DNA of 64,000 bases from Methanofollis tationis. GTDB lineage: Archaea > Halobacteriota > Methanomicrobia > Methanomicrobiales > Methanofollaceae. The stretch is taken from contig NZ_JABXWR010000001.1 of assembly GCF_013377755.1 (NCBI RefSeq), positions 1,747,104 to 1,811,103 of the forward strand, in the 5' to 3' direction. The position numbers were made by a program, and so were the translations under genes. Shown piece after piece: positions 1,353 through 22,656 of this stretch (positions are counted from its first letter, which is position 1; each line of letters starts with the position of its first letter). Below the pieces are notes generated by a model. It saw nothing but the letters and a program-made list of their open reading frames with translations. It was not told the origin of the DNA and did not search any database.

Positions 1353-3281
1353 TTATGCCGCCGAATGGCTGCCGGCGGCACCGGTGGAGGACTCAAAGAC
1401 CTTCGCCGGTTCCGCGGCAAGTTTTTTCAGTTTGTTCAGGAAGACCTCGCGGTTCTGCGGGACGAGCGCCACTTCGAGCACCTCCTCGATATGCTCCACC
1501 GGGATGATCTCCACCATCGTGCGGTACCGGTCCTCGATCAGCACGTCCCCGAAGTTCGCCTTCGGGATGATCACCGTCTTGATCCCGGCCTTGGCGGCCG
1601 CCTCGATCTTGTAGGTGACGCCGCCGATGGGCAGGACGTCGCCGCGGACCGAGAGGGAGCCGGTCATCGCCACGTCCTGCTTCACCGGGATGCCCTCGAT
1701 CGCCGAGATGACGGCGGTCGCCACCGATATGGATGCCGAGTCACCCTCGACGCCGCTGTAAGTGCCGATGAACTGGACATGGACGTCCATGTTCCTGATG
1801 TCCCGGCCGGTGAACTTCTTCAGGATCGCCGAGACGTTCTGGATCGACTCCTTTGCGATCTCCTTTAACAGCCCGGTGGCGATCACCGTCCCGTTCGCCC
1901 CCTGCGACGGGGTAACCTCGGCGACGATCGGCAGTATCGAGCCCGAGTCGCTGCCCATCACGGCAAGGCCGTTCACCCGCCCGATCTGCGTGCCGGTAAC
2001 GACGGAGAGGTCGTAGTCCCGTATCCGCGTGATGTACTCGTCTGAGATCTGCTGCTCGATCGAGCGGGCCGACTGCTTCGCCTTGAGCACATGCTCGGCA
2101 GTCGTCATGTCGGCGCCTTCCTGGCGGGCAATGTCGCCGGCGACCCGGATCAGCCCGCCCATGTCACGGAGCTTCAGGGTCAGGTGCCCCTTCCGGTTGG
2201 ATCGGCGCTGCCCTTCCCTGATCACCTCTTCGATCGCGCTCCGGTCGAAGTGCGGGATCTTCCCGTCGTTCTTCACCTCCTGAGCGATGAACCTGACGAA
2301 TTTCACGCGGTTCTCAGGGGTGTCGAGCATCGTGTCCTGCATATACACCTCATAGCCGTAGCCCCTGATACGGGAGCGGAGTGCCGGGTGCATCCCCTGA
2401 ACGGCGTCCAGGTTGCCGGCCGCCACCATGATGAAACGGCAGGGAACCGGTTCGGTCCTGACCATCGCCCCGCTCGACCGCTCTGACTGACCGGTGATGG
2501 GAAACTCCCCTTCCTGCAGGGCCGTGAGGAGGTTCTGCTGCGAATGGGGCGTCAGCGTGTTAATCTCGTCGATGAAGAGCACGCCGCCGTTCGAGCGGTG
2601 GATGGCGCCGGCCTCGACGCGGTCATGGGCCGGGGTCTCGAGCCCGCCGGACTGGAAAGGGTCGTGGCGCACGTCGCCCAGGAGGGCGCCGGCATGCGAC
2701 CCGGTGCCGTCGATGAAGGGGGCGACGGCGTTGGGCTCGCTGGATACCAGGAGTTTGGGGATCATCGCCTCTTCACGCGGCCTTGAGTACTGGAGAGCCA
2801 TGAAGATGAAGGCGGCGGCGATGATGCCCATCAGCCACTGGCCCGATATCAGGGCGTAGCCGATGATGCCGAAGATGAGGAGCATTATCAGGGTGTTGCG
2901 CATCTGTTTGCGTTTCCCTGCCTCGGCCTTGTGGGCGGCAACGATCTGCTTGCCCCTCCCCGAAGCAACCGTCCTGATGATCGGGTTGTTCGAGTCATCG
3001 AGGTTCGGATAGACAAGGATGTCCTTGAGTTCCTCTTTGGGGAGGAGTTCGGCCATCGCTTTCGCCAGCATCGACTTGCCTGTACCGGGGTTGCCGATCA
3101 TCATCACATGTCGGCGCTGGGTGGCGGCCTTCTTTATCACCTCCACGGCGTTCTCCTGACCGATCACCTGATCGATCAGCCTGGGGGGCACGGTAATCTC
3201 GGAGGAACTCGAGACATCATAGCCCTGGAGGACGTCTTCCTCGGATTTCATCTCAAGGATTTCAGAAACACTCTCTTCCAT
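1353..3281 (-). CDS. lonB: Archaeal membrane-anchored Lon protease (LonB)
   Basis: ATP-dependent AAA+ serine protease, 642 residues from the chosen ATG. Walker A GNPGTGKS is at 63-70 and Walker B (GGVLFIDEI) at about 233-241; between them lie two membrane helices (about 129-145 and 149-165), the hallmark of archaeal LonB, which faces the cytoplasm from the membrane. The C-terminal protease domain has catalytic Ser515 in EGDSAS and Lys558 in TYK. The frame is open 48 bases further upstream, but that extension crosses a TATA element at 3311-3320, so the ATG at 3281 (GAGGT 10-15 bases upstream) is preferred. tldD follows after 3 bases. Confidence 0.95.
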
Positions 3282-3310
3282 TATTGGTGCAACCTCGTTA
3301 AGCAATGATA

Positions 3311-3320
3311 CTTTATATAC
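3311..3320. promoter_or_regulatory. Shared TATA element between lonB and prs
   Basis: The sequence ctttatatac reads as an archaeal TATA box on both strands. On the plus strand a start about 26 bases on (near 3340) precedes the prs ribosome-binding site GGAGG at 3352-3356. On the minus strand the predicted start near 3289 is only about 8 bases from the lonB ATG at 3281. The two ATGs are 86 bases apart and no second TATA box is evident. Confidence 0.5.
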
Positions 3321-3367
3321 TATTTTCATGATAGTTTAAGTAGTTTCAGCTGGAGGAAAGACCAGAA

Positions 3368-4219
3368 ATGAAGGTCGTATGCACAGAAAAATCACAGATT
3401 CTCGCCGTTCGGATCGCCGACCACCTGGGGGTGGAGGCAGTCGAGACCCGCTTCTCTCAGTTTCCTGACGGTGAACTCTACCTGCAGGTGGCCGGTCCGC
3501 TGGATGACGAGACGGTGATCGTCGGGAGCGTCACCGATAATGACGCCTTTATCCAGCTGATGCTCCTTATCGATGCCTGCGAGGCGACGACGAACACCCT
3601 CGTCGTCCCGTACATGGGATATGCACGGCAGGATAAGAAGTTCAGGGACGGAGAACCGGTGAGTGCCCGTGTTGCGGCACGGGCCCTCTCCCGCGGGGTC
3701 AGCGACGTGATCACGGTCAACATCCATGAGAAGGAGATCGCCCGGTACTTCGATGCGGCGGCCCATGATCTCTCGCTTGCCGCCGATGTCGGGGAGTACA
3801 TCAAAGGGCGGGGTTTTGCCGATCCCCTGATCCTCGCCCCGGACAGCGGTGCGGCGGATTTCGCGATGGAGATCGCCTCTGAGGGCGGCTGGCAGGCCGA
3901 TTACCTGAAAAAGACCCGGCTATCCGGAGAAGAGGTGCGGATGGAGCCCAAGACCTTCGACGTGAAGGGGCGAGAGGTCGTCATCGTCGACGACATCATC
4001 TCGACCGGGGGAACGCTCGCCACGGCGACGAAGATGCTCTATGATCAGGGGGCGTATGCCGTCCACGCCGCCTGCGTCCACGGGGTCTTCACCGGCGGGG
4101 CCTATGTCCGCCTGCGGGCTGCCGGGGTGAAGAGCCTGGTCTGCTCGGACACGATCGAGCGGGCGTGCTCGGCGTTCACGGCGGCGCACCGCATCGCCGA
4201 AGCGCTGAAGAAATGTTAG
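3368..4219 (+). CDS. prs: Ribose-phosphate pyrophosphokinase
   Basis: PRPP synthetase, 283 residues, making 5-phosphoribosyl 1-diphosphate from ribose 5-phosphate and ATP for nucleotide, histidine and tryptophan synthesis. The PRPP-binding loop VVIVDDIISTGGTLA spans 204-218; the ATP-binding region carries MGYARQDKKF at 83-92 and the catalytic flexible-loop Lys/Arg follow (KKTRLSG, 181-187). The size fits the compact archaeal (class III) enzyme. GGAGG at 3352-3356 sits 11 bases before the ATG. The last 7 bases overlap rtcA, so prs-rtcA-nob1 look co-transcribed and translationally coupled. Confidence 0.96.
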   Translation: MKVVCTEKSQILAVRIADHLGVEAVETRFSQFPDGELYLQVAGPLDDETVIVGSVTDNDAFIQLMLLIDACEATTNTLVVPYMGYARQDKKFRDGEPVSARVAARALSRGVSDVITVNIHEKEIARYFDAAAHDLSLAADVGEYIKGRGFADPLILAPDSGAADFAMEIASEGGWQADYLKKTRLSGEEVRMEPKTFDVKGREVVIVDDIISTGGTLATATKMLYDQGAYAVHAACVHGVFTGGAYVRLRAAGVKSLVCSDTIERACSAFTAAHRIAEALKKC

Positions 4220-16865: not shown

Positions 16866-17135
16866 ATGGCTGAAAACCTGCGTTTTATCGTATATACCCT
16901 AGAATTCTGCCCGAACTGCGAACTCCTGAAGGCCTGCCTCACGGCAAAGGGCCACTCCTATGAGGAGCAGGACATGTCCACTGCGGAGAACCTGACCGAG
17001 CTGCGGGTGAACGGCGTCTTTGTGAGCGAGGCGCCGGTCCTGCGTCTGGGAGACGACTTCTACACCTCCGCCGACCTCTTTGCGAGCGGCCGCGTGCGGG
17101 AAGACGTTATCGACGGTATTGCAGCGGGTGAGTGA
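16866..17135 (+). CDS. Glutaredoxin/NrdH-like thiol oxidoreductase
   Basis: 89 residues with a thioredoxin fold and the active-site motif CPNC (FCPNCELLKACL, about residues 15-26), a cis-Pro region (EAPVLRLGD) and a conserved ending resembling small archaeal glutaredoxins. Its stop overlaps the GTG start of nrdD by 4 bases, so it is probably the dedicated reductant for, or regulator of, the class III ribonucleotide reductase next to it. The start ATG has GGGAG upstream. Confidence 0.88.
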   Translation: MAENLRFIVYTLEFCPNCELLKACLTAKGHSYEEQDMSTAENLTELRVNGVFVSEAPVLRLGDDFYTSADLFASGRVREDVIDGIAAGE

Positions 17136-20100
17136 CCGTGGACCGGCAGACGAAGCAGGCGACCCTTGACGGTGTCTTCGTTCCCCCCATGCCGAAGGTC
17201 CGCTCGTCCGAGGGGCATATCTTCGACTGGGACCGCTCCAGGATCGTCGCCCAGATCGTGAAGGAGACCAGACTCGTCGAGGAGTTTTACGGGTATGTGG
17301 GGGCGACGCAGGAGCAGGCCGAAGAGATCGCCCGGACGGTCGAGGACCGGATCCGAAAACTGGGTCTGCGCGCCCTCTCCGGCCCCCTGATCAGGGAGAT
17401 CGTGAACATAACCCTCCTTGAGCAGGGGATGGTGCAGTACAGAAACGTCTGCACCCGCGTCGGCACCCCGGTCTTCGACGCCCACCTCATTGACGTCGGG
17501 CGGGGGTTCGAAGCGCACGACAACGCCAACCTGCAGGAGAATGCCGAGACCTCGCATAAGAAGAAGGCCGACAAGATCTCCAAGGAGCAGTACCTCCTCC
17601 AGCTCCCGCCCGAGCTCGCCGACCGCCACCTTGCTGGCGACCTCCATATCCACGACCTCGAATACTTCGGATCCAGGCCGTTTTGTCTTGACGGCAGCAC
17701 CGTCGTCCCGGTCGTCTCCGCCGGGCGGCACCGGACGCTGCGGCTCGATGATGTACCGTTTGAGGGTGACGAGTATTTCCCGTCTGACCTCGCCGTCCTC
17801 ACGCCCGGTGGGTCCGGGCCGGTGCAGAAGATCACGAGGCGCCCGGTGGGGGAGGGGGAGGTGCTCCGCGTCCGCACCTCCTCGGGAAAAAGCGTCCTTG
17901 CGACGCGTGACCACCGGATCCCGGTGCTGACCGGCAATACCATGACGATCAAAAAGGCCGGCGAGGTGCAGGAGGGCGATCTTCTCTATGGCCTCGGTAA
18001 GACAACAGCGCTCCGTGGCGACGCCGTCTCTTCGATCGATCTGGTCCGTGAGTTCGGCGTCACCGTCCCCCCCGAAACCCAGGAGACAATCTTCGTCCGG
18101 GGTGCACGGCCCCTCTTCGATCGTGTGGCTGAGATCGATGGGAGCTATGTGGGAATATCCCGGGCGCTCGGCATCGAGCACCGCAAAGAATGGTTCACCC
18201 GCGGCACGATGCCCCTCCCGACGTTCCGCACCTTTTGTGAACACTATGGCATCACCGATGCCGGCGACCTCCGGATCGGTGTCGCCGGCAGCCGGCATGA
18301 ACTGCCCGCCGTCCTGCCGGTCACCCCTGCGCTCTGCCGCCTCCTTGGTTTCTTTGTTTCTGAAGGGAACTACGACGTCGTCCCGGGCAGCACCTATAAC
18401 CTCGCCATCACCGAAAACCACCAGTCGGGGGCGATCATCGCCGACGTTCGGACGGTGCTTGGCGGGTATGCGACCCTTTCAGGCGGCGAACCGGAGGAAA
18501 CCGAGATCTATGGGGTCAGGGTGATGAGGGACCGGGCGATGCAGGTCTATTTCGGGGGAAAACTCGGCTGGCTCCTCTTCAGGTACGTCTTTGCGGTCCC
18601 TGAAGGGGCGGCGAACAAGCGTCTTCCCTGGCTTGTCTGGCACCTCGACGACGAACTTCTCGGTGAGTTCCTCTCCGCCCTCTTCACCGGCGACGGTTCG
18701 GCGTATTACCGATCGGAGAAATCCGATTGCATCGTCAATTACACTACAGTATCCACGTCCCTGCGGCAGGAACTCTCGCTCCTCCTCGCCTCGCTCGGCA
18801 TGCACCCCCGGGTCGTCGAACTCTATGCCGACGACGACGAACGCACGACGCTGTACCGCCTCCAGATCAACGGTGCGGAGAATATCCGCACCTTCTCACG
18901 CCTGGTGCGGTTCCTCGACGACCGTCAGGCGCACATCGACCGCTTCTGTGTGGAGGTGCGGCCGATCGCATGTAGCCGCGGCGGCGAAACGGTCGTCTCG
19001 ATCGGCGAGGCCGCACCCACGGGGGCTTATGTCTATGATCTCTTTCTGGATGGGGACGGTTCTGAGGAGAGTCACACCTTTTACGCTTCAGACGGACTCC
19101 TCGTGCATAACTGCCAGGACTGGGACCTCCGTTACTTCTTCTACTACGGCCTGATGCCCGACGGCAACGGCACGAAGGCGAGCGTGGCCGGTCCGGCGAA
19201 ACGCGCCGAGGTCGCCGTCCTCCATGCAGTCAAGGCCCTCGGGAGCGCCCAGACGAACTTTGCCGGTGGGCAGGGCTACTACAACTTCCTCTCCTTTATG
19301 GCTCCGTACTTCGAGGGGATGGCCTACGACGAGATCAAGCAGCTGATGCAGATGTTCGTCTACGAGATGACCCAGATGATGGTCGCCCGCGGCGGGCAGC
19401 TCGTCTTCTCCTCGGTCCAGCTCTCCCCGGGCGTCCCCTCGCTCTGGAAAGAGAAGCCCTGCGTCTACAAGGGCAAGGTCTGGGACGGTACACAGGCACC
19501 GAAACGGACCTATGGCGAGTTCGAACGGGAGGTCCGCCTCCTCTTCAAGGCAATGATGGAGGTGATGCTCGAAGGGGACTCCTGGGGCAAGCCCTTCTCC
19601 TTCCCCAAGCCCGAAGTCTCTATCGAGCCCGACTTCATGGACGAGGACGAAGAGTTCAACCGGGATCACCCCGACCTTCCCACCTACCGCGACCTCTACC
19701 TGCTCACCTTCGAACTGGCAAGCAAGTTCGGCACCCCCTATTACGACAACCAGCTCCCGTCGTACCGAGGGGCCGGGAACGGGATATCGTGCTATCAATG
19801 TTGCGCCTATCAATTTTCCGCTACATTCGATAAAGACTCTGAATTTGAAGAAAAACTCTTTTTCAGGGACGGAAAGCACTTCTCTATGGGTTCATGGCAG
19901 GTCGTCTCGATCAATTGTCCACGCGCCGCCTTCAGAGCCGAAGGGGACGATCAGCGGCTCTTTGCCGAACTGAAAGCTCTCATGGACGTCGCCGTCGAGG
20001 TCTTCACGATCAAACGGCGCTGGATGGAGACGATCCGGACGAACGGCCGGATGCCCTTTGCGATGCAGCGCCCCAAAGACCCGAACACGGGAGAGCGCGG

Positions 20101-20743
20101 GCAGGTGGCCGTCGACCTCACCGGCCTCGTCTACACGATCGGCGTCGTCGGCGTGAACGAGATGGTGCAGCACCACACGGGCAGCCAGCTCCATGAATCT
20201 AAGGCGGCGTTCCGTCTGGCGGTTCGGGCGATGACCGAACTGGAACTCTACGCCCGCGAGATCTCGCAGCGGACCGGGATGACCATTGCCCTCGCCCGCA
20301 CCCCTGCCGAGACGACGGGGCAGCGTTTCGCCGTTGCCGACATGCTCGAAGAACAGTTCAGGACGGCCGCCCTCACGGTGATGAAAGGCGACGTCGAGAC
20401 TGCGGTGGCCGAATGCGGGACCACCCGGGATCTCCCGGTCTATTATACGAACGGCACCCATGTGGCGCCCGGCGCTCCGGTCCCGCTCACCAAACGGATG
20501 GAGATCGAGCACGTCTTCTTCCCGATCGTCGACGGCGGCAACATCTTCCATATCTGGCTCGGCGAGGCCCGCCCTGACCCTCGCGGCCTGATGGACATGG
20601 CGATGAACCTCTGCAAGAAGACCCAGATTGGCTACTTCGCCTTCACCCGGGACCTCACCGTCTCCCTGAAACGGTATAAAGACTACCACGGCGGCCGCAA
20701 GGTTCCCGGGCAGCTGGAGGTAGAAGCTCCGACAGAGGCCTGA
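17132..20743 (+). CDS. nrdD: Class III (anaerobic) ribonucleotide reductase with intein; glycyl-radical tail absent
   Basis: A 1203-residue precursor starting at GTG 17132. An N-terminal ATP-cone (about 10-105) precedes the catalytic barrel. An intein fills residues 185-660; splicing would give 727 residues and restore FGSRPF-CQDWDLRYF. NrdD signatures follow the intein (GSAQTNFAGGQGY, SSVQLSPGVP, GISCYQCCAYQF, VVSINCPRAAF, GNIFHIWLGEA). Normal NrdD ends with a four-Cys zinc site and an R-V/I-x-G-Y glycyl-radical motif; here the sequence diverges after YFAFTRDLTV, where the first zinc Cys would be, and ends with no zinc site and no radical glycine. No such motif is visible in other frames to 20760. 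Either the radical segment is supplied elsewhere or this is a non-canonical NrdD paralogue. It is followed after 3 bases by a DUF1786 gene rather than a recognisable nrdG activase. Confidence 0.93.
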   Translation: MTVDRQTKQATLDGVFVPPMPKVRSSEGHIFDWDRSRIVAQIVKETRLVEEFYGYVGATQEQAEEIARTVEDRIRKLGLRALSGPLIREIVNITLLEQGMVQYRNVCTRVGTPVFDAHLIDVGRGFEAHDNANLQENAETSHKKKADKISKEQYLLQLPPELADRHLAGDLHIHDLEYFGSRPFCLDGSTVVPVVSAGRHRTLRLDDVPFEGDEYFPSDLAVLTPGGSGPVQKITRRPVGEGEVLRVRTSSGKSVLATRDHRIPVLTGNTMTIKKAGEVQEGDLLYGLGKTTALRGDAVSSIDLVREFGVTVPPETQETIFVRGARPLFDRVAEIDGSYVGISRALGIEHRKEWFTRGTMPLPTFRTFCEHYGITDAGDLRIGVAGSRHELPAVLPVTPALCRLLGFFVSEGNYDVVPGSTYNLAITENHQSGAIIADVRTVLGGYATLSGGEPEETEIYGVRVMRDRAMQVYFGGKLGWLLFRYVFAVPEGAANKRLPWLVWHLDDELLGEFLSALFTGDGSAYYRSEKSDCIVNYTTVSTSLRQELSLLLASLGMHPRVVELYADDDERTTLYRLQINGAENIRTFSRLVRFLDDRQAHIDRFCVEVRPIACSRGGETVVSIGEAAPTGAYVYDLFLDGDGSEESHTFYASDGLLVHNCQDWDLRYFFYYGLMPDGNGTKASVAGPAKRAEVAVLHAVKALGSAQTNFAGGQGYYNFLSFMAPYFEGMAYDEIKQLMQMFVYEMTQMMVARGGQLVFSSVQLSPGVPSLWKEKPCVYKGKVWDGTQAPKRTYGEFEREVRLLFKAMMEVMLEGDSWGKPFSFPKPEVSIEPDFMDEDEEFNRDHPDLPTYRDLYLLTFELASKFGTPYYDNQLPSYRGAGNGISCYQCCAYQFSATFDKDSEFEEKLFFRDGKHFSMGSWQVVSINCPRAAFRAEGDDQRLFAELKALMDVAVEVFTIKRRWMETIRTNGRMPFAMQRPKDPNTGERGQVAVDLTGLVYTIGVVGVNEMVQHHTGSQLHESKAAFRLAVRAMTELELYAREISQRTGMTIALARTPAETTGQRFAVADMLEEQFRTAALTVMKGDVETAVAECGTTRDLPVYYTNGTHVAPGAPVPLTKRMEIEHVFFPIVDGGNIFHIWLGEARPDPRGLMDMAMNLCKKTQIGYFAFTRDLTVSLKRYKDYHGGRKVPGQLEVEAPTEA
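17684..19111 (+). other. Intein with LAGLIDADG-type homing endonuclease in NrdD
   Basis: 476 residues in frame within nrdD. Block A starts with Cys185 (CLDGSTVVPV); block B contains the TxxH-like VLATRDHRIPV; the C-terminal block ends YASDGLLVHN, and the extein +1 residue is Cys661. Two dodecapeptide (LAGLIDADG-class) motifs are visible, LCRLLGFFVSEGN at about 399-411 and GEFLSALFTGDGS at about 508-520, so the homing endonuclease looks intact. The insertion site lies directly before a Cys in the conserved RPFC motif, consistent with inteins choosing active-site segments. Confidence 0.92.
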
Positions 20744-20746
20744 ATC

Positions 20747-21778
20747 ATGGGTGACGGCCGCATCCTTGCCATCGATATCGGCCGGGGGACGCAGGACGTC
20801 CTCGTCTACGACCCGGCGCAGTCGATCGAGAACTCAACAAAACTCGTCCTCCCCTCCCCGACGGTCGTCGTGGGCCGGGCGATCAGAGGGGCGGCGGCCG
20901 CGGGAAGGCCGGTGCATCTCGAGGGATCCTGCATGGGCGGTGGAGGGAGCGTCGCCGCGGTCAGGGGGGCGCTCGCCGCCGGTCTCAGGGTGACGGCGAC
21001 ACCTTCTGCAGCGTTGACGATCCACGACGACCCGGAGCGTGTCCGGGCGCTTGGCGTCGTCATTACGGAGGACGCACCCAATGGCGCTGCCGTCGTTCAG
21101 ACGGGCGACTACATGGAGGGGGAACTGCGGGCAGCCCTCTCCCTCTTCGGCGTCGAGTATCCCGGGCAGGTGGCGATTGCCGTGCAGGACCACGGCTTCT
21201 CTCCCCACATTTCGAACCGAGTCCACCGCTTTGCCGTCTTCACCTCGCTCCTCGAGGCCGGGGACTGGGACCTCTTCGCCCTTGCCCCTGATCCCCCGCA
21301 CCCCTCGATGAGCCGGATGCGGGCAGTGCTGGCGGCAGCGCCCGGCGCTCTCCTCACCGACACCGGCCCGGCGGCGGCGATCGGCGCCCTCCTTGATCCA
21401 TGGGTGGCTGATCGTGTCGAGGACGGCATCACCCTGGTCAACGCCGGAAACGGCCATACCCTCTGCTTCACCCTCAGGGGCAGCCGGGTCTGCGGGATCT
21501 TCGAACACCACACCGCCGCTCTGGACACAGAGAGACTGACCGGCTATATCAGAAAACTGCAGGCCGGGACGCTGACGAATGCAGAGGTCTTCGACGACGG
21601 GGGTCACGGTGCGGCGGTGCGGGAGGCGGTCGGCAAGACGCCGGTGGCGGTCACCGGCCCGAACCGGCAGCGTCTCCTGCCGGGCGCATGGCAGGCCGCC
21701 CCCTGCGGCGACATGATGCTGACCGGCTGTTTCGGGCTTATCGAGATCTGGAAGAGGAGAAAAGCCGGTTTCGTGTAA
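20747..21778 (+). CDS. DUF1786 ASKHA-fold-like protein
   Basis: 343 residues of the archaeal DUF1786 family, often labelled 'pyruvate formate-lyase activating enzyme related' in databases. It has no CxxxCxxC radical-SAM motif, so that label is not supported here. Instead it has actin/hexokinase-like phosphate motifs: ILAIDIGRGTQDVLVYD at residues 6-22 and ITLVNAGNGHTLCF at about 227-240, plus a glycine-rich GSCMGGGGS. An ATP-dependent or enzyme-reactivation function is plausible by analogy with ASKHA activators of radical enzymes, but this is inference. It begins 3 bases after nrdD, so the two are co-transcribed. Confidence 0.82.
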   Translation: MGDGRILAIDIGRGTQDVLVYDPAQSIENSTKLVLPSPTVVVGRAIRGAAAAGRPVHLEGSCMGGGGSVAAVRGALAAGLRVTATPSAALTIHDDPERVRALGVVITEDAPNGAAVVQTGDYMEGELRAALSLFGVEYPGQVAIAVQDHGFSPHISNRVHRFAVFTSLLEAGDWDLFALAPDPPHPSMSRMRAVLAAAPGALLTDTGPAAAIGALLDPWVADRVEDGITLVNAGNGHTLCFTLRGSRVCGIFEHHTAALDTERLTGYIRKLQAGTLTNAEVFDDGGHGAAVREAVGKTPVAVTGPNRQRLLPGAWQAAPCGDMMLTGCFGLIEIWKRRKAGFV

Positions 21779-21821
21779 TAAATGAGTGCTGTTTTTCTCC
21801 GGGCGGCCAAAAAGCCCTTCA

Positions 21822-21831
21822 TTTTATATAG
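21822..21831 (+). promoter_or_regulatory. TATA box of the REC-PAS gene
   Basis: The sequence ttttatata lies about 50 bases before the ATG at 21877. The predicted start near 21853 gives a leader of about 24 nt that includes GGTG at 21864-21867, a reasonable ribosome-binding site for the ATG at 21877. Confidence 0.55.
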
Positions 21832-21876
21832 TATCGGCTTTTATTATTTTTCATATCACGTCTGGTGTCCTTGATT

Positions 21877-22656
21877 ATGATTTCTTTAGATAAGCCGAGA
21901 ATTCTCATGGTCGAGGACGACGCCATTCTGTCAACCCTCACAAAAACCATGCTCATCCGCATGGGATATGAGGTGGTCGGAACGGTCTCGACCGTCAGGG
22001 AAGCGCTCGGTTCTGTGGTGGAAAAGATTCCCGATCTTGTGCTGATGGACATCAACCTCGGCACAACCTTCGACGGCATCGACGCGGCGAACTATATCTA
22101 TCACTGCTTTAATACGCCGGTCGTGTTTCTGACCGGGACATCCGAGCCTGATGTCCTCGATCGGGCAAAGACGGCGGAGCCGTTCGGGTACGTCACCAAA
22201 CCGTTCACCAGGGAAGGGCTGTGTGCGGCGATCGAGATTGCATACAGTTCGTTCCAGATGAATAAACCCGAGATCGATCGGATCAGGAAGAAGTTTCTGG
22301 AAACAATCGCCGGAGACGATGCCTATTTTCTCATCGACGAGAAGGGCACGATCATCTTCATGAACGGGTATGCCGGTCACATGACCGGGTTCTCCTATGG
22401 CGAGGCCTTTCTCGCCGGCCTTGGTGACGTGCTCGTGATGAAGGACCGGCAGTCCGAGGTCAGGTTTTCAAAGCAGAGTCTGATCAGGGATATCGGGACG
22501 GCAGGGATCCTGAACCAGGTCTATGTGGTGCGGGTCGTGTCCAGGAACCGCAAGGTGAAAACCGCGAAGATGAGTGTGAAACCGATCAAGGACCGTTCCG
22601 AACAGGTGATCGGGTACATCGTCAGACTGGAAGAGGTTCAGGGAAAGATGCTGTGA
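21877..22656 (+). CDS. Response regulator with PAS domain
   Basis: 259 residues: receiver domain 1-125 with acidic pocket (VEDD), phospho-acceptor Asp58 (LVLMDIN), conserved Thr (FLTGTSE) and Lys108 (VTKPF), followed by a PAS domain (about 140-255; AYFLIDEKGTIIFMNGYAG). There is no DNA-binding or kinase domain, so it probably works by protein-protein contact with a kinase, a common layout in methanogens. A GTG at 21865 is also in frame, but the ATG at 21877 fits the TATA box and GGTG better. It is convergent with the PAP2 gene, 8 bases away. Confidence 0.9.
   Translation: MISLDKPRILMVEDDAILSTLTKTMLIRMGYEVVGTVSTVREALGSVVEKIPDLVLMDINLGTTFDGIDAANYIYHCFNTPVVFLTGTSEPDVLDRAKTAEPFGYVTKPFTREGLCAAIEIAYSSFQMNKPEIDRIRKKFLETIAGDDAYFLIDEKGTIIFMNGYAGHMTGFSYGEAFLAGLGDVLVMKDRQSEVRFSKQSLIRDIGTAGILNQVYVVRVVSRNRKVKTAKMSVKPIKDRSEQVIGYIVRLEEVQGKML

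Follow-up and report, generated by a model that had tools for sequence, protein, structure and literature searches.

The window analysed here, a 64,000-nucleotide stretch of the Methanofollis tationis genome (contig NZ_JABXWR010000001.1, positions 1,747,104 to 1,811,103), carries nrdD, the gene for the catalytic chain of a class III ribonucleotide reductase, in a putative operon with genes for an NrdH-like protein and a DUF1786 protein. The nrdD product matches Pfam NRDD (3.6e-129) and TIGR02487 (5e-136) in profile searches, and its alignment to NRDD covers positions 1–510 of 562. It ends with the segment YFAFTRDLTV, encoded at 20633–20662, followed by 26 poorly conserved residues and the stop codon. 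Six-frame scans revealed no segment combining four zinc-site cysteines with RVxGY in the whole window and no RVxGY-like segment at 20000–22500, and nothing in the window matches a degenerate DNA pattern for QVSRVTGY. The profile search and the six-frame scan thus agree with a preliminary description of this DNA, according to which the NrdD match ends at YFAFTRDLTV with no zinc or RVxGY tail in any frame up to 20760; the intein that it had recognized in nrdD could be mapped to residues 185–660.

Table. Features of the nrdD locus (window coordinates) and two unlinked genes of the same genome (G000 coordinates).
Feature	Position	Strand	Remarks
NrdH-like glutaredoxin-fold protein	16866..17135	+	CPNC motif; weak glutaredoxin matches; overlaps nrdD start by 4 nucleotides
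nrdD, class III reductase catalytic chain	17132..20743	+	GTG start; 1203 residues, 727 without the intein; lacks the C-terminal zinc/glycyl-radical domain
Intein, LAGLIDADG type	17684..19111	+	476 residues; directly precedes active-site Cys (Cys185 of the mature chain); absent from G003
C-extein	19112..20662	+	Rest of the 10-stranded barrel; radical-Cys loop GISCYQCCAYQF; last strand YFAF
Variable C-terminal extension	20663..20743	+	26 residues and stop; stands where the glycyl-radical domain would be
DUF1786 protein	20747..21778	+	PF08735, 6.5e-77; next gene in the putative operon
Small glycyl-radical chain	G000:C1:1540066-1540428 (= L034:7067-7429)		120 residues; outside the window, ~224 kb from nrdD; sequence MQWSEEHLALARKYQRLEEIPVEERRYKCHTCNHVVETTPCPVCGETALEIMCPLDHTHCPHEIVSGIEYCPLCGEPVCPECGSHDVSQISRVTGYLQDVSGWNAGKQQELKDRIRYTVA
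NrdG-type activase	G000:C1:342245-343054		TIGR02495, 140.9 bits, above the cut-off

The preliminary description had also considered that an error near position 20670 might mask the tail, or that close relatives might have the full tail at this locus. However, an independent genome of the same genus (G003) has an extein 99% identical to that of the window and the identical end, with no intein, and no close relative with a full tail at this locus was found. Since G003 and other relatives share the tailless end, sequencing error can be excluded. Across the order, aligned large chains stop at NRDD positions 510–516, and the short end that follows differs in sequence and length among relatives of which the preceding barrel is highly conserved. 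C185, the active-site residue on the first strand, and C414, the radical cysteine of the finger loop, are invariant across 37 aligned NrdDs. Moreover, the large chain is under purifying selection, the ratio of non-synonymous to synonymous substitution rates (dN/dS) being 0.03–0.14 within the genus. That nrdD is a frameshifted or decayed gene which should have a tail on the same polypeptide (cis tail) is suggested by nothing but the absence of that tail; given the same end in independent genomes order-wide, the low dN/dS and the lack of a downstream tail in any frame, we rejected this explanation as virtually inconceivable.

We found the missing domain elsewhere in the genome. Of three matches to NRDD in the M. 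tationis genome (G000), two are the extein parts of the window nrdD and the third, to profile positions 507–562, lies in a separate short open reading frame (ORF). The 120-residue chain that it encodes consists of an additional Cys-rich N-terminal part, a Cys4 zinc site, SRVTGYL and then WNAGKQQELKDR, and its final 50 residues amount to a complete class III tail, with Cys71/74/79/82, SRVTGYL and a docking stretch of the WN-GK-QQELKDR type. These four cysteines, SRVTGYL, GWN, GK and QQELKDR are invariant or nearly so in an alignment of 16 small chains, and the ~66 residues ahead of the tail include six conserved cysteines without counterparts in cis tails. With the small-chain profile aligned to Prevotella copri NrdD, Gly95 falls on chain residue 715, and would correspond to the radical glycine Gly711 (PMC11226230) through a numbering offset of four residues, the PDB chain having 743 residues and the protein 739. 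Within the genus, dN/dS of the small chain is 0.03–0.09. A search for a short free glycyl-radical protein, which the preliminary description had advocated, therefore yielded one in this very genome, and its proposal that a separate polypeptide supplies the radical is strongly supported: the free chain is exactly the missing segment and is tied to the tailless NrdD throughout the order.

This association was examined in 120 genomes of Methanomicrobiales. The NRDD large chain was present in 104, the 16 without it all being of one genus (g16), and all listed large chains, fragmentary matches aside, stop at positions 510–516. A full-length small chain was found in 74 of the sampled genomes, and the nine listed as lacking it all belong to g16; named small-chain records come from Methanofollis, Methanoculleus, Methanoregula, Methanospirillum, Methanogenium, Methanolinea and Methanomicrobium, all Methanomicrobiales, and 88% identity to L082/L083 agrees with Methanofollis as the genus of the window. 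An NrdG-type activase was identified in 101 genomes, the remaining 19 comprising the 16 of g16 and three drafts. No nrdG adjoined nrdD or the small-chain gene at the loci of the order that were examined, the activase being unlinked; a gene similar to the M. tationis activase does adjoin nrdD in G364, where the operon is nrdH-nrdD-nrdG with the same nrdH-like gene ahead of nrdD. In the Methanomicrobiales, then, the C-terminal zinc/glycyl-radical domain is absent from the NrdD polypeptide and encoded solely as a separate protein. One genome (G001) has, alongside the split enzyme, an extra full-length, cis-tailed NrdD of 565 residues that is unrelated to it and belongs to a different subfamily, best described as PRK07111-like (L051:4689-6386).

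Whether the split enzyme has to work was addressed through the other reductases of these genomes. With PF02867, no class I/II reductase was detected in ten genomes of the order, and with PF02867 and TIGR02504 combined none was detected in G047, G059, G076, G096, G112 and G086, each of which encodes both large chain and activase. (G018 was dropped from the class I/II-free set when TIGR02504 revealed a short class II fragment.) In each of the first five, the small-chain profile has exactly one match, which is the free chain, so a cis tail is absent; G086 lay outside the small-chain sample and has two NRDD matches. G112 is a single contig at 94% completeness and G059 consists of 20 contigs at 98%. 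As no class I/II reductase was found in these six genomes, the split enzyme must make their deoxyribonucleotides, unless salvage alone suffices. These data bear on another option of the preliminary description, that the large chain, as a paralogue, does a different job, in which case the small chain would be a zinc protein with its own function that resembles a tail by chance. M. tationis does possess a class II reductase as well, as this option would allow, but the large chain retains the class III active-site cysteines, has an SCYQCC loop identical to that of tailed NrdDs and is 65–68% identical to them overall, the Gly loop and docking tail of the small chain are nearly unchanged, and in several genomes the split enzyme is the only reductase found. 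Such a paralogue is thus very improbable. The M. tationis class II enzyme, NrdJ, is encoded outside the window (G000:C1:1678935-1681451; L200, L201) by an ORF of 1107 residues with a split profile match that probably bears an intein, its counterpart in G009 having 741 residues.

We consider it very likely that the window nrdD provides the catalytic chain for a class III reductase that obligately consists of two chains, with the glycyl-radical chain acting in trans and an unlinked NrdG as the activase. The small chain would dock on the open barrel where the missing tail would otherwise be, and the NrdG-type radical S-adenosylmethionine (SAM) activase would install the radical on Gly95. Gly95 would then give rise to a thiyl radical at the large chain's finger-loop cysteine (Cys414 region), in the manner of NrdDs that consist of a single chain, and the NrdH-like protein of the operon would return electrons. 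For YfiD, a free glycyl-radical protein discussed below, activation requires a complex with its partner (PMC8683613). Several points weigh against the two-chain enzyme. The structure model of the small chain is of moderate confidence (pLDDT, the predicted local distance difference test, 79) and matched no fold in the PDB search; association of the chains and radical formation are inferred, as is the activity itself; and the activase owes its assignment to family score and co-occurrence rather than to gene linkage within the order. Large chain, small chain and activase are jointly absent from a single genus, so their co-absence counts as one evolutionary loss. Finally, the genomes in which the split enzyme is the only reductase found are 91–99% complete and some are drafts, and because M. 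tationis also encodes a class II enzyme, class III may be dispensable there.

Inteins are common among these nrdD genes, to judge from their long ORFs; several genomes of genus g4 have NrdD ORFs of ~1700–2000 residues, apparently with more than one intein each. They could be taken to hint that the two chains are joined into one normal NrdD, post-translationally by split-intein trans-splicing or at the RNA level. The anatomy of the proteins speaks against this: neither the large-chain C-terminus, with its 26 residues, nor the small-chain N-terminus, which is Cys-rich and has its own start, bears an intein half, intein signals are confined to the internal intein, and intein-free relatives are equally split. 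Split-intein trans-splicing was thus rejected, and joining of either kind seems to us barely credible.

The two-chain arrangement also accords with the structure predicted for the large chain. In the AlphaFold model of the G003 protein, which matches the solved class III NrdDs 9d3x and 8p2c (E ~1e-25 in a fold search), order extends as far as the last barrel strand (residues 692–697), and residues 700–727 are disordered. The glycyl-radical domain of P. copri NrdD likewise starts, at residue 676, once the last strand of the barrel is complete (PMC11226230). Since order ends at the equivalent point, the chain appears to have been cut at a domain boundary, so that the mouth of the barrel is left free to receive the small chain. 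A tree of 62 NrdDs, computed with the tail columns excluded, unites all 29 tailless chains in a single clade (support 100), nested among tailed archaeal NrdDs of the same subtype and sister to a tailed NrdD of family f22; this was a quick tree whose outgroup branches are very long, although these do not touch the split between tailless and tailed chains. Monophyly of the tailless chains indicates a single loss of the cis tail. The zinc module of the small chains (residues 50–87) matches free chains of other archaea at E 3e-9 to 2e-7 but cis tails only at E 0.01 or worse, so the free chains make up a family apart, and a simple fission of the ancestral archaeal NrdD, which we also considered, is less likely. 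Instead, the cis tail may have disappeared in one event at the base of the Methanomicrobiales, with a protein from an already existing free-tail family taking its place.

Outside the order, genomes of the phylum carry the tail fused within ORFs of ~760–830 residues. Free chains (ORFs of ~88–194 residues) were identified in genus g57 of family f8, which from its gene content and position in the phylum we take to be Methanosarcinaceae, and in G286, G219, G242 and G392, and the genomes that carry them also carry one or two tailed NrdDs. Fused archaeal tails (L162–L174, L247–L261) mostly show three clear zinc-site cysteines (TVC...CxxC), and free chains four. Seven IMG/VR contigs likewise encode free chains (L237/L274, L238/L275, L272, L273, L276, L277 and L278). 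In L272 the chain sits between genes for a Cas4-type exonuclease and a helicase, in L277 and L278 it precedes a primase gene, and in L237, L276 and L238 terminase or baseplate genes are close by. No NrdD barrel was detected on the viral contigs with a free chain, all of which may be fragments, and among annotated phages only the cis-tailed NrdDs of Enterococcus phages turned up. A further IMG/VR contig, likewise with no NrdD barrel detected (L239:443-799; IMGVR_UViG_3300033148_007023), encodes a free glycyl-radical-like chain of 118 residues that lacks the zinc cysteines, WSRVMGYLRPISGWNAGKQSEYADRV; close to it, on the minus strand, lies a radical-SAM-like ORF (2407-3483).

The occurrence of free chains beside intact NrdD, and on viral contigs without NrdD, suggests a 'spare-part' role there, and the viral copies also speak for the use of such chains in trans. 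One may speculate that a virus supplies a fresh radical chain to the NrdD of its host, by analogy with phage T4 Y06I and pyruvate formate-lyase (PFL). These same occurrences would favour the view that the small chain of Methanomicrobiales, too, is only a repair part of the GrcA/YfiD kind and that the tailless NrdD uses another radical source. However, a spare part presupposes a partner with a damageable tail of its own, which the g57 genomes have in their tailed NrdDs and the Methanomicrobiales do not: they possess no cis-tailed copy of this NrdD to be repaired, nor any further glycyl-radical segment for this enzyme. A role in repair alone is therefore highly unlikely in this order. More broadly, free tails might be exchangeable glycyl-radical cartridges of class III reductases, kept as spare parts by archaea that retain a tailed NrdD, delivered by replicating viruses to the reductase of their host, and made an obligate subunit in Methanomicrobiales upon loss of the cis tail, a unifying scheme to which we give a little less than an even chance.

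Among the neighbouring genes, that for the NrdH-like protein was found at all 21 nrdD loci inspected, and its product is probably the reductant of the split NrdD. The DUF1786 gene lies directly 3' of nrdD in 13 of 21 loci; Pfam annotates this family as a putative pyruvate formate-lyase activating enzyme. Around the small-chain gene, pyrF and the deoxyhypusine synthase gene occur upstream and a CbiZ/zinc-finger-like gene downstream (80 and 78 of 86 loci, respectively), the start of the latter being overlapped by 4 nucleotides (ATGA) in 50 of 74 loci. This gene encodes CbiZ, a cobinamide amidohydrolase, fused to a cysteine-rich zinc-finger-like domain, and it is possible that the class III radical chain is linked to the salvage of B12, which the class II reductase needs.

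Separation of the two parts throughout an order makes installation of the glycyl radical, its protection and its handover between chains accessible to experiment. If the two-chain enzyme is real, it would allow radical parts damaged by oxygen to be swapped naturally, sparing the cell from remaking the large chain, and the virus-borne copies suggest viral action on this step of host DNA-precursor supply. Annotation is also put right, as NrdDs of this kind appear truncated and the small chain, at 57.9 bits, is far below the cut-off of the NCBIfam NrdD model (326.35).

Among the closest known systems is the Methanosarcina barkeri type of NrdD/NrdG, reportedly an archaeal NrdH-linked class III subtype (Wei et al. 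in 2015). Like this type, the window enzyme has the SCYQCC loop, an NrdH-like operon gene and an NrdG-type activase, and its barrel is 65–68% identical to that of tailed NrdDs from related archaea, but its glycyl-radical domain is separate and its activase unlinked, in contrast to the nrdH-nrdD-nrdG order of G364. Two short phage NrdD families, phrog_29160 (158 positions) and phrog_4218 (333 positions), also contain short proteins ending in an NrdD tail, presumably intron-separated exons or fragments. In the open literature that we searched, which leaves out subscription papers and notably work on M. barkeri NrdD, a split class III reductase is undescribed. Glycyl-radical enzymes have been described with radical and active site on one chain, the sole validated exception being the spare-part proteins of PFL, YfiD/GrcA and phage T4 Y06I (PMC8683613). 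The small chain resembles these in being a small free glycyl-radical protein that would serve a larger barrel chain in trans, with virus-encoded versions. It differs in its inferred target, NrdD rather than PFL, its profile matches being to NRDD and not to the PFL-type Gly_radical (PF01228), and in that YfiD/GrcA repairs an oxygen-cleaved enzyme that has its own tail, whereas the catalytic chain of Methanomicrobiales has none. Split domains have been called distinct to class II reductases (PMC9669993), and it is there that an architectural parallel lies: in Pseudomonas NrdJa/NrdJb, too, one chain holds the barrel and another the C-terminal zinc domain (PMC4520616), but this is a class II enzyme that uses adenosylcobalamin and no glycyl radical, whereas the barrel in the window is an NrdD, in a genome that encodes its own NrdJ elsewhere.
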